The notes beneath the pieces are model-generated. The model did not search any database. It was not told the DNA's origin and was given only the letters and a program-made list of their open reading frames with translations. The position numbers were made by a program, and so were the translations under genes. Below, one piece after another: positions 32,688-35,522 of a DNA stretch of 39,145 bases. This DNA is from an uncultured Pelagibacteraceae bacterium (GTDB lineage Bacteria; Pseudomonadota; Alphaproteobacteria; Pelagibacterales; Pelagibacteraceae). Location of the stretch: the NCBI GenBank assembly GCA_902610675.1, contig CACLWP010000010.1, positions 1 through 39,145 on the forward strand, given 5' to 3'. Within the stretch, counting starts at the first letter, position 1. Every line of letters starts with the position of its first letter.

Positions 32688-33611
32688 CTATAGAGCTAAA
32701 TCTAGACAATGAACGCTAAAAAGTTTTTTGTCATCAGTCCAAGTTTTATTGATTTTCCATCCAGCTTCATTTGCTAAGTTTTTAAAGGACCTAATAGTGT
32801 ATTTGTGAGAATTTTCAGTATGGATCTCCTCATTTTTTTTAATAAAATATTTTGATCCATTTATTCTAATATTATTATTTCTTTTAGATTTTAATCTCAT
32901 CTCAATTCTTTTTTTTGGTTTATTATAAACAGCTAAATGTTTATAGAAATTTAGGTTTATATCTCCGCCCAATTCAATATTTATTCTTCTTAAAATATTT
33001 TTATTGAATTTTGCAGTTACGCCCTTTTTATCATCGTAAGCAGAAATTAGAGTTGGAATATCTTTAACTAAGTCGGCACCAATAATAATTTTTTTTGCTT
33101 TAAATTTTGATTTAAGCATTTTTAAAAACTTAACAGCATCATTTTTTTCAAAATTACCAATAGTTGATCCCGGAAAAAAGATTATTATATTTTCTGACGA
33201 ATTGATTTTAAAAGGTAGTTTATTATTTTTTGAGAAATCATATCCTTTTGGAGTAATGGCCACATTTGGAAATTTTTTTTTAAAACCTTTAGCAATTTTG
33301 GTTATATAGTTATCAGAAATATCTAATGGTATATATTTTTTTGGCTTATCTAAGTTGTCTAGAAAAATACCAATTTTCTTAATGTCTCCAGCACCTGGTT
33401 CAATTATAACTGCGTTAGTGCCAATTTTATTGGCAATTTCAATTTTATTATCTTGTAAAATTTTTCTTTCAGTCCGTGTTAAGTAATATTCTTCCAAATT
33501 AGTAATTTGTTCAAAAATTTTTGATCCATAAAAGTCATAAAACCATTTAGAGTTAAGCTTCTTATTTTTCTTACTTAAACCAAGACTTACCTCTTGTAAA
33601 AACAATTTCAT
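32688..33611 (-). CDS. EgtD-like histidine N-alpha-methyltransferase
   Basis: A 307-residue member of the EgtD (Methyltransf_33) family. EYYLTRTE at 41-48 and IIEPGAGD at 69-76 form the SAM-binding part, and FFPGSTIGNFE at 145-155 has the Asn (N153) matching the histidine-carboxylate contact of mycobacterial EgtD. Further histidine-pocket residues appear kept: Y192 in SAYDDKKGVTAKFN, M238 in RIEMRL, and E266 and S268 in HTENS. This predicts trimethylation of histidine to hercynine. No EgtB-like sulfoxide synthase is in the window. It starts 1 base after the upstream methyltransferase, last gene of a three-gene operon, and is AT-rich like the rest of the window, unlike its two partners. Confidence 0.78.
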   Translation of the reverse strand: MKLFLQEVSLGLSKKNKKLNSKWFYDFYGSKIFEQITNLEEYYLTRTERKILQDNKIEIANKIGTNAVIIEPGAGDIKKIGIFLDNLDKPKKYIPLDISDNYITKIAKGFKKKFPNVAITPKGYDFSKNNKLPFKINSSENIIIFFPGSTIGNFEKNDAVKFLKMLKSKFKAKKIIIGADLVKDIPTLISAYDDKKGVTAKFNKNILRRINIELGGDINLNFYKHLAVYNKPKKRIEMRLKSKRNNNIRINGSKYFIKKNEEIHTENSHKYTIRSFKNLANEAGWKINKTWTDDKKLFSVHCLDLAL

Positions 33612-33612
33612 T

Positions 33613-34527
33613 TTAAATCAGCTCAACTAAAAGACGATTAATTGGCATTGAGAATCTTCCTTGTCTTTCAGCATCAGTGCTATCTTTAGATATCGTAAGT
33701 ATCTTAGACAAGCTTGATATCATTAATTTTCTTTTCTCAGGCTTTAAGACAAATGCAGCATAGAAAAATCCTGCTGCAATTTCAGATACTTGATTCACTG
33801 GTCCCTCAATAGTTACAACATTTGTTTCAATAGTTATATTTGCTTCTGGAAAAGTTTTATGTACAAGATTGCTTAGACTTTCACGTCCTCGTATCCTTGA
33901 GTCGCCTAAATCAATCTCTCCATAACCAGGTATCTCCTCTTGTGCATAACTATAAATCAAATTATGTACATCTAAGTAGCCAGGTGCTGCATTCATTGGT
34001 CCGTCAACTAATGCTGCAAATCGCCCCCTAGAAGTTAAAACTCGTCTGACTTCATTTAATACAGGAGCTATCGGGTCCATTAACGTTAAGGCCCAGTGAC
34101 ATAATACTATGTCGATAGAATTATCATTGATCGCAGTCAAATTTTGTGCTTTTGACTTAATGAGATTAACTCTACTATTTTTGAGACGAGACCCGGCTAA
34201 TTCTAATTCTTCAGGACACATGTCCAGACCTCTTAAGTTTAAATTTTTGTTGCGCTCGAATAAGATTTTTAATAGTAGCCCTGATCCACAGGCAAGATCT
34301 AGTACACGCAAACTTTCATTGACTGGCACAAGTTCAGCTAGCCATTCATAACTATTCCGTCCAGTTTCATCCCTACAAGAGCTTGCACACTCTTCAGTAA
34401 ATCCAGTATGTTTTTGATGGACAGTCATTAAATGATCAACTAAGGCATTACTATCAGGACGTAGATTGTGAACGAGACTGTCAGTCCAGATTGAATTAAG
34501 CCCACTCTGACTTTTTAAATTTTTCAT
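33613..34527 (-). CDS. Class I SAM-dependent methyltransferase in the EgtD-like operon
   Basis: A 304-residue methyltransferase. Motif I is VLDLACGSG at 75-83, the acidic ribose contact D102 is in GLDMCPEE, and motif IV is DIVLCHWAL near 139-147, followed by VRRVLTSRGRF. The N-terminal 60 residues include ECASSCRDE, with two cysteines, and NSYEWLAEL, suggesting an added lid domain. The substrate is unknown. The gene overlaps the dioxygenase by ATGA (34524-34527) and is followed one base later by the EgtD-like gene, so it probably acts on the same molecule. A sample, 34261-34440, is 71 of 180 G+C, higher than nearby genes, suggesting transfer. Confidence 0.72.
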   Translation of the reverse strand: MKNLKSQSGLNSIWTDSLVHNLRPDSNALVDHLMTVHQKHTGFTEECASSCRDETGRNSYEWLAELVPVNESLRVLDLACGSGLLLKILFERNKNLNLRGLDMCPEELELAGSRLKNSRVNLIKSKAQNLTAINDNSIDIVLCHWALTLMDPIAPVLNEVRRVLTSRGRFAALVDGPMNAAPGYLDVHNLIYSYAQEEIPGYGEIDLGDSRIRGRESLSNLVHKTFPEANITIETNVVTIEGPVNQVSEIAAGFFYAAFVLKPEKRKLMISSLSKILTISKDSTDAERQGRFSMPINRLLVELI

Positions 34528-35522
34528 GATTTATCTTTAACTGGCCAACAAATCGGATTCAGTGGGCTAGCTGCCACTTCTCCTGGTTTAACATTGGGCA
34601 TAAATTTCTGCCAGTCCCCAGAAACCATTGTAGGTGCATTAATCACTCTGGCTCCATCTCGGTAATAAGTATTGGCTAAAACTACTCGGCTGCGATTAGT
34701 ACGGTTACGTGAAGCAGTATGGAAATTTAAGTTATGATGAAAACTAACCTCACCAAGTTCAAATGGAGTTTCATTCACTTTTACATTATTTTTTGAAAAA
34801 ACCTCTGACACCCCACGGTCATATCCAGTACCAGTTTTTTCAAATGAAACTGAGTTAACTAATTCATGAACATTAAGTGGATAAGCAAACGAGAGTGGTC
34901 CCATCTCAAGAGGGATTGGCTGAGCTGGTACCCAAGCGGTAACTACGTCATTGGTATCTAGAGGAAAATGATGATCGTCGAAGTGCCATGGGGTACGACC
35001 ACAACCAGCTTGTTTAGCTAATACATTATCATGATAAAGTCTAACAGCTGGTACCTCAAGAAGATCTGTTGAAATTTGACCTAGACGTGGTGATAAAACG
35101 TAAGCACGAAGAAGTTTATTTTTAGGCCAAATCATTTCAAGACTAAGAAAACGCTCATGTGCTCCTTTATCTGGATCAACCTTAAACTCTTTTTTTAAAA
35201 GATTAATTAGCTCAGCTCGAAGTTTAAGTACAGCGCCAGGTGAAAAAACTCTCTTAAGTTTTATGAAGCCATTTTTTTTAAAAAAATTAATTTGATCTTT
35301 CGATAAGTTATAAGGCTCAGATAATTCTAAGATAACTTCATGATCACTGGGCATTATTATATCTGGAAGGGGTTCTACATTAATAATTCTATCCTCTTTA
35401 ACATCATTGTCTGCAAGACTAACATACCAGTCCCACCAAGCCTGGTTATCCTTATCCCACGGTTTACTAACATCAGTACTGTCAGTTTTATTTAAATTTT
35501 GATTGTTATTAGATATAGCCAT
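34524..35522 (-). CDS. Phytanoyl-CoA dioxygenase (PhyH) family Fe(II)/2-oxoglutarate oxygenase
   Basis: A 332-residue non-heme iron oxygenase. The iron triad is H180 and D182 (PWHFDDHHFPL) with distal H268 (LNFHTASRN); R279, 11 residues later, is the expected 2-oxoglutarate anchor. AWVPAQPIPLEMGPLSF and SRVVLANTYYRDG are typical of PhyH proteins, which mostly hydroxylate small molecules. The first 60 residues are an extension with a Trp-rich NQAWWDWYVS. The substrate is unknown. It is the first gene of the operon, after a 128-base gap. A sample, 34861-35040, is 78 of 180 G+C (43%) against 30 of 120 (25%) in the EgtD-like gene, a mark of foreign origin. Confidence 0.8.
   Translation of the reverse strand: MAISNNNQNLNKTDSTDVSKPWDKDNQAWWDWYVSLADNDVKEDRIINVEPLPDIIMPSDHEVILELSEPYNLSKDQINFFKKNGFIKLKRVFSPGAVLKLRAELINLLKKEFKVDPDKGAHERFLSLEMIWPKNKLLRAYVLSPRLGQISTDLLEVPAVRLYHDNVLAKQAGCGRTPWHFDDHHFPLDTNDVVTAWVPAQPIPLEMGPLSFAYPLNVHELVNSVSFEKTGTGYDRGVSEVFSKNNVKVNETPFELGEVSFHHNLNFHTASRNRTNRSRVVLANTYYRDGARVINAPTMVSGDWQKFMPNVKPGEVAASPLNPICWPVKDKS

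Follow-up and report, generated by a model that had tools for sequence, protein, structure and literature searches.

Hercynine is usually regarded as an intermediate of ergothioneine, the product of the EgtD-EgtB-EgtE pathway. In a cyanobacterial study, hercynine was detected in nine of 10 strains and its thiol in eight of those nine (PMC3826126). The SAR11 gene block described here has EgtD in common with the ergothioneine pathway, and some relatives have EgtB in the same block, yet EgtD is accompanied by an Fe(II)/2-oxoglutarate oxygenase of the PhyH type (PhyH) and a class I SAM methyltransferase (MT2), while EgtB was not found in the genome under study (G000). Carnitine biosynthesis likewise passes through an N-trimethylated amino acid and then a 2-oxoglutarate oxygenase, namely trimethyllysine and its 2-oxoglutarate-dependent hydroxylation. 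However, it uses lysine rather than histidine, its oxygenase belongs to another family than PhyH, and the SAR11 block has an extra methyltransferase. A profile search against PDB sequences placed SnoK, SnoN, MysH, phytanoyl-CoA dioxygenase, and EctD as the solved proteins nearest to PhyH. The tailoring oxygenases SnoK/SnoN, MysH, and EctD share sequence family and metal triad with PhyH, but the likeness is distant, and PhyH has its own conserved N-terminal PWDKDNQAWWDWYV stretch as well as the linkage to EgtD. Finally, the methyltransferase of the DsyG/DsyD system of DMSP synthesis shares the broad Pfam domain PF08241 with MT2, whereas its partner DsyD is a protein with the ureidoglycolate-lyase-type domain PF04115 and not PhyH (PMC11306096). 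A Pfam search found no PF04115 domain in PhyH, MT2, or EgtD, and the DMSP reading was dropped because DsyD is not a PhyH protein.

The conserved three-gene set of SAR11 probably makes a sulfur-free, histidine-derived compound not yet known. In a literature search that had most subscription papers and bioRxiv outside its reach, no description of a PhyH-MT2-EgtD set was found, in agreement with an earlier note on this DNA, whose author knew of no described pathway with these genes. Within the same limits, no paper was found joining ergothioneine with SAR11 or EgtD with Pelagibacter.

The PhyH-MT2-EgtD operon and its enzyme families

The window, i.e., the whole stretch of DNA analyzed, comprises 39,145 nucleotides from an uncultured Pelagibacteraceae bacterium. 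According to the ORF list, three genes on its reverse strand are transcribed in the order PhyH (34524..35522, 332 aa), MT2 (33613..34527, 304 aa), and EgtD of the L-histidine N-alpha-methyltransferase type (32688..33611, 307 aa). The first two overlap by 4 bases (34524-34527), and the last two are separated by 1 base (position 33612), which confirms, for three ORFs at these coordinates, the strand and spacing given in the earlier note. Compared with two relatives, PhyH, MT2, and EgtD display dN/dS values of 0.11-0.23, indicating purifying selection on all three. The G+C content of PhyH and MT2 (0.37) versus that of EgtD (0.25) fits a PhyH-MT2 pair of separate origin joining a resident EgtD. 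A promoter scan gave nothing beyond chance (22 vs 20.1, sd 4.4), no Rfam families were found in the window, and the block has no EgtB or EgtE neighbor there. The flanking genes TauE, DUF2061, and PGM were rejected as block members: they border the block in L081 and occur in its vicinity in L129-L132 and L158, and none of the other named loci (80 in all) gave a match. L081, from Pelagibacteraceae, is the nearest named relative of the window, with 89% identity in MT2 and 94-99% in the flanking genes, and the placement of the window in SAR11 rests on this relative.

EgtD scored 329.1 bits against Methyltransf_33 (cut-off 23) in a Pfam search and passed the curated equivalog model for L-histidine N-alpha-methyltransferase, TIGR03438, with 349.5 bits (cut-off 290.9), while its score with the EasF model fell short (161.3 vs cut-off 205.55). 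In an alignment with PDB sequences, the nearest solved structures were EgtD entries, presumably mycobacterial. Numbered by hand in this alignment, N153, Y192, M238, E266, and S268, named as pocket residues in the earlier note, all have mycobacterial counterparts, i.e., Asn166, Tyr206, Met252, Glu282, and Ser284, of which Met252 is likewise assumed here to be a histidine-pocket position. The histidine site of Mycobacterium tuberculosis EgtD is given as Tyr56, Asn166, Tyr206, Glu282, and Ser284 (PMC8593015). N153, Y192, E266, and S268 are invariant in 58 of 58 aligned rows, which represent 57 genes with locus L156 entered twice, and the Met252-equivalent position is Met in 52 of these genes, Gly in three, and Leu in two. 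At the positions checked, the pocket in the window's lineage matches that of the EgtB-paired EgtD relatives L055, L056, and L194. Judged from these sequence comparisons, it is strongly supported that EgtD makes hercynine from histidine. In genus g2, the Met252 position is Gly in all three sequences examined (L059:9395-10297, L060:9565-10467, and L199:6228-7130), and the substrate of g2 EgtD may therefore differ. At the g2 loci L059 and L199, EgtD adjoins genes resembling ProX and ProW, components of an ABC transporter of the glycine-betaine type, with ProX above its cut-off and the permease below it in L059 (family search), and with L199 assigned by likeness; this neighborhood is compatible with a betaine product but proves nothing.

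The PhyH domain was recognized with 53.1 bits (Pfam cut-off 22). Its metal triad H180/D182/H268, intact according to the earlier note, proved invariant together with R279, presumably the 2-oxoglutarate residue, in all 23 sequences of one alignment and in all 10 of another that takes in far relatives. MT2 matched Methyltransf_11 (59.2 bits vs cut-off 21.2, Pfam search), and a profile search against PDB sequences placed it solely as a generic class I methyltransferase, with no known subfamily assignable. Types such as UbiE, UbiG, BioC, and ArsM were tried and rejected, since the best 25 of 32 NCBIfam methyltransferase models each scored MT2 far below cut-off. The structure predictions were too poor to use for both PhyH (pLDDT 31.3) and MT2 (pLDDT 54.6).

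Distribution within and outside SAR11

Relatives were collected as a named set, in which a named-genome scan with the MT2 alignment supplied the best 80 of 108 relatives, and as a family set of 197 genomes; the two share some genomes. Of the named loci, 78 are from Pelagibacteraceae or Pelagibacterales records and two are betaproteobacterial; most of the named genomes are single-cell or metagenome drafts. Among these best 80 of 108, PhyH adjoins MT2 in 79, the exception (L126) being cut by a contig end, and EgtD lies within 2.5 kb of MT2 in 51. An EgtD-family (Methyltransf_33) gene is carried elsewhere by 23 of the 29 genomes without adjacent EgtD, bringing the total to 74 of the 80 genomes, and was not found in the other six, for which no completeness figure is given (L096, L121, L126, L135, L142, and L151, the last beginning inside PhyH). 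Those of the 51 EgtD loci whose two flanks are both known fall into 12 different combinations of flanking gene groups, some with one flank in common, which shows that the block moved or was rebuilt as a unit. Such conservation with varied flanks means that the adjacency of PhyH, MT2, and EgtD in the window is not due to chance; the view of the earlier note that the genes form one unit is borne out, and their adjacency, which might have been peculiar to this genome, recurs in those 51 loci. In a tblastn comparison of 20 regions, the complete block was found in G040, G060, G140, and G143 besides the window, and in the relatives with listed ORFs (L042, L043, L044, and L045), the end of MT2 shares 4 bases with EgtD. 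The PhyH-MT2 pair is the tightest unit and can be separate from EgtD, as it is in genus g2 and a further Pelagibacteraceae clade.

Within the family set, PhyH was found in 25 and EgtD in 42 of the 197 genomes (4 and 14, respectively, of the 77 genomes at least 90% complete). EgtD is present in 23 of 25 genomes with PhyH versus 19 of 172 without it, a co-occurrence with a Fisher p of 2e-16 that is uncorrected for kinship, 20 of the 25 PhyH genomes belonging to one genus. Genome G185, where only the MT2 end is present near the contig start, before EgtD, counts against the co-occurrence through this contig start.

Outside SAR11, the Burkholderiales locus L156 has the gene order EgtD, PhyH, MT2, EgtB, and its proteins are 77% (PhyH), 61% (MT2), and 36% (EgtD) identical to those of the window, the value for EgtB being 43%. 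EgtD thus lies upstream of the pair in L156 and downstream in SAR11, and because the L156 EgtD is both distant (36%) and on the opposite side, EgtD and PhyH-MT2 were joined at least twice. In an MT2 tree of 84 rows with midpoint root, in which bootstrapping is not fully settled, two betaproteobacterial rows fall outside the SAR11 rows. Among 385 genomes of the class, MT2 was matched only in G299, G337, and G515 besides G000. In these three, MT2 is accompanied by PhyH, a third methyltransferase, and an MFS transporter, in two of them also by an SSS transporter, while EgtD is found elsewhere in the genome in three of three. This co-occurrence is weak support, as 54 of 177 class genomes have an EgtD scoring above cut-off, including G204, which is of the same genus as G515 and has EgtD and no MT2 match. 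G337 and G515 carry EgtB-EgtD with a gene of 375-378 aa that is EgtE-like by eye, and EgtB had no match in the G299 stretch around EgtD (L208).

The third methyltransferase (~276 aa), near PhyH/MT2 and the MFS transporter in the three alphaproteobacteria (L163:7021-7848, L161:13051-13887), belongs to a family matched in five of 372 class genomes, with further loci at L211:8672-9508 and L212:8888-10126. The contig of G435 (L211) breaks off within the SSS gene, at the place expected for PhyH/MT2, and in G379 (L212), neither PhyH nor MT2 was matched nearby. A phylum search at E 1e-30 over 398 genomes matched MT2 in G000 only. In the plasmid collection, 17 records match PhyH, the best at 43.6% (Streptomyces), and 11 match MT2, the first two listed at 33% and 38%; around five of these 28 matches, neither the PhyH-MT2 pair nor EgtD was recognized, the B. 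cenocepacia record being unannotated there. In viruses, the pattern matches from two scans numbered 11 and 34, and no relative was among them.

A proposed pathway from histidine and its alternatives

In the proposed pathway, EgtD would trimethylate histidine to hercynine, PhyH would use Fe(II), O2, and 2-oxoglutarate to oxidize hercynine at one of its C-H bonds, most likely at the side-chain beta carbon or the ring, and MT2 may methylate the new hydroxyl or an imidazole nitrogen. The product would be a small zwitterion, for which the simplest role is that of a solute or protectant, and where EgtB is also present, hercynine would be divided between the PhyH-MT2 branch and ergothioneine. From enzyme class and gene linkage we infer the PhyH and MT2 steps, their order, their sites, and the product. 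That SAR11 and some other bacteria form an undescribed sulfur-free hercynine derivative, oxidized and methylated, by a new EgtD-PhyH-MT2 pathway is given an even chance. The narrower proposal that this operon makes a sulfur-free, oxidized, and further methylated histidine betaine by EgtD, then PhyH, then MT2 is tentative and falls somewhat short of that. SAR11 genomes are small, with few accessory functions, and a conserved three-enzyme betaine route in such genomes would point to a metabolite of real use in the open ocean. If the sulfur-free branch is true, finding EgtD alone in the genome of a marine organism would not necessarily indicate ergothioneine; EgtD would feed a second pathway besides ergothioneine, and a short list of masses would become available for marine metabolomics.

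The distribution of EgtB bears on whether the product contains sulfur. No EgtB match was found in G000 (83.7% complete), an absence that is not proof in an incomplete assembly. Nor was there a match in the relative G040, a genome of one contig and 100% complete, or in any of the 31 draft genomes in which EgtD accompanies the pair and EgtB is missing from the surrounding 3 kb; as a positive control, the same query matched 12 of the 197 family genomes. The product therefore need not contain sulfur, and a sulfur-free product would be the simpler reading for the window's lineage. On the other hand, 21 of the 80 named loci (best 80 of 108), from two unrelated lineages, have EgtB no more than 3 kb from the pair, and EgtB is upstream of the block in 19 of the 80, all in one SAR11 clade of the MT2 tree. 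Across the 197 family genomes, it occurs in two of 25 with PhyH versus 10 of 172 without (p 0.65) and so, unlike EgtD, shows no association with PhyH. The EgtB-free character stressed in the earlier note thus holds for this genome, where none was found, but is no hallmark of the system, since EgtB adjoins the 19 SAR11 loci and L156; EgtB is not essential to the system. EanB is a larger multi-rhodanese protein. In G000, the rhodanese domain was matched four times, in frames of 143, 305, and 275 aa, and these matches were rejected as EanB, so that the search for EgtB or EanB elsewhere in this genome, suggested in the earlier note, found neither. It could be speculated that ergothioneine, or a product of EgtB, is what PhyH and MT2 modify, as the 21 loci with nearby EgtB in two unrelated lineages might suggest, yet the 31 drafts and the complete G040, together with rhodanese frames unlike EanB, make this quite improbable.

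A rather unlikely explanation, though one of some weight, is that PhyH-MT2 acts on a different precursor and has only its regulation or use, such as stress or osmotic functions, in common with hercynine or ergothioneine. It would account for the pair being separate from EgtD in genus g2 and the further Pelagibacteraceae clade, and for its occurrence, in the three alphaproteobacteria, with a further methyltransferase and with transporters (MFS in all three, SSS in two). Against it stand the independent joining of EgtD to the pair in SAR11 and Burkholderiales, on opposite sides and with tight spacing in SAR11, and the EgtD-family gene in 74 of 80 named genomes versus 19 of 172 family genomes without PhyH. 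The reactions may also run in reverse, with PhyH oxidizing free histidine, MT2 methylating the product, and EgtD adding three N-methyls last. The gene order itself is PhyH, MT2, EgtD, although it need not equal the order of reactions, and the Gly replacing Met252 in g2 EgtD could admit a larger substrate, whereas the window's lineage keeps the ordinary histidine pocket of the EgtB-paired relatives; the reverse order is accordingly considered unlikely. Finally, by analogy with the conversion of trimethyllysine to carnitine, it is chemically conceivable that hercynine is beta-hydroxylated and that retro-aldol cleavage then frees glycine betaine. A 349-aa protein near the pair in L096, L110, L121, and L126 is threonine-aldolase-like by eye, but its gene runs opposite to the pair and is confined to one clade among the loci examined, and this highly improbable route would leave MT2 without a role.

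EgtD also occurs with a methyltransferase and an oxygenase in a second arrangement, unrelated to the PhyH-MT2 block. In three SAR11 loci (L057:7460-11456, L195:4885-8881, and L196:4090-8086), a 209-aa methyltransferase and a 391-aa Rieske oxygenase come after EgtB-EgtD on the same strand, the oxygenase showing some GbcA likeness below the model cut-off. In several SAR11 genomes, an SBP56 protein, presumably of the methanethiol-oxidase family, is encoded downstream of EgtB-EgtD (L057:4476-5828, L195:10513-11865, and L198:84-1436); it was assigned by a Pfam match for L057 and by likeness for L195 and L198, and L057 and L195 also have a ferredoxin-like gene.
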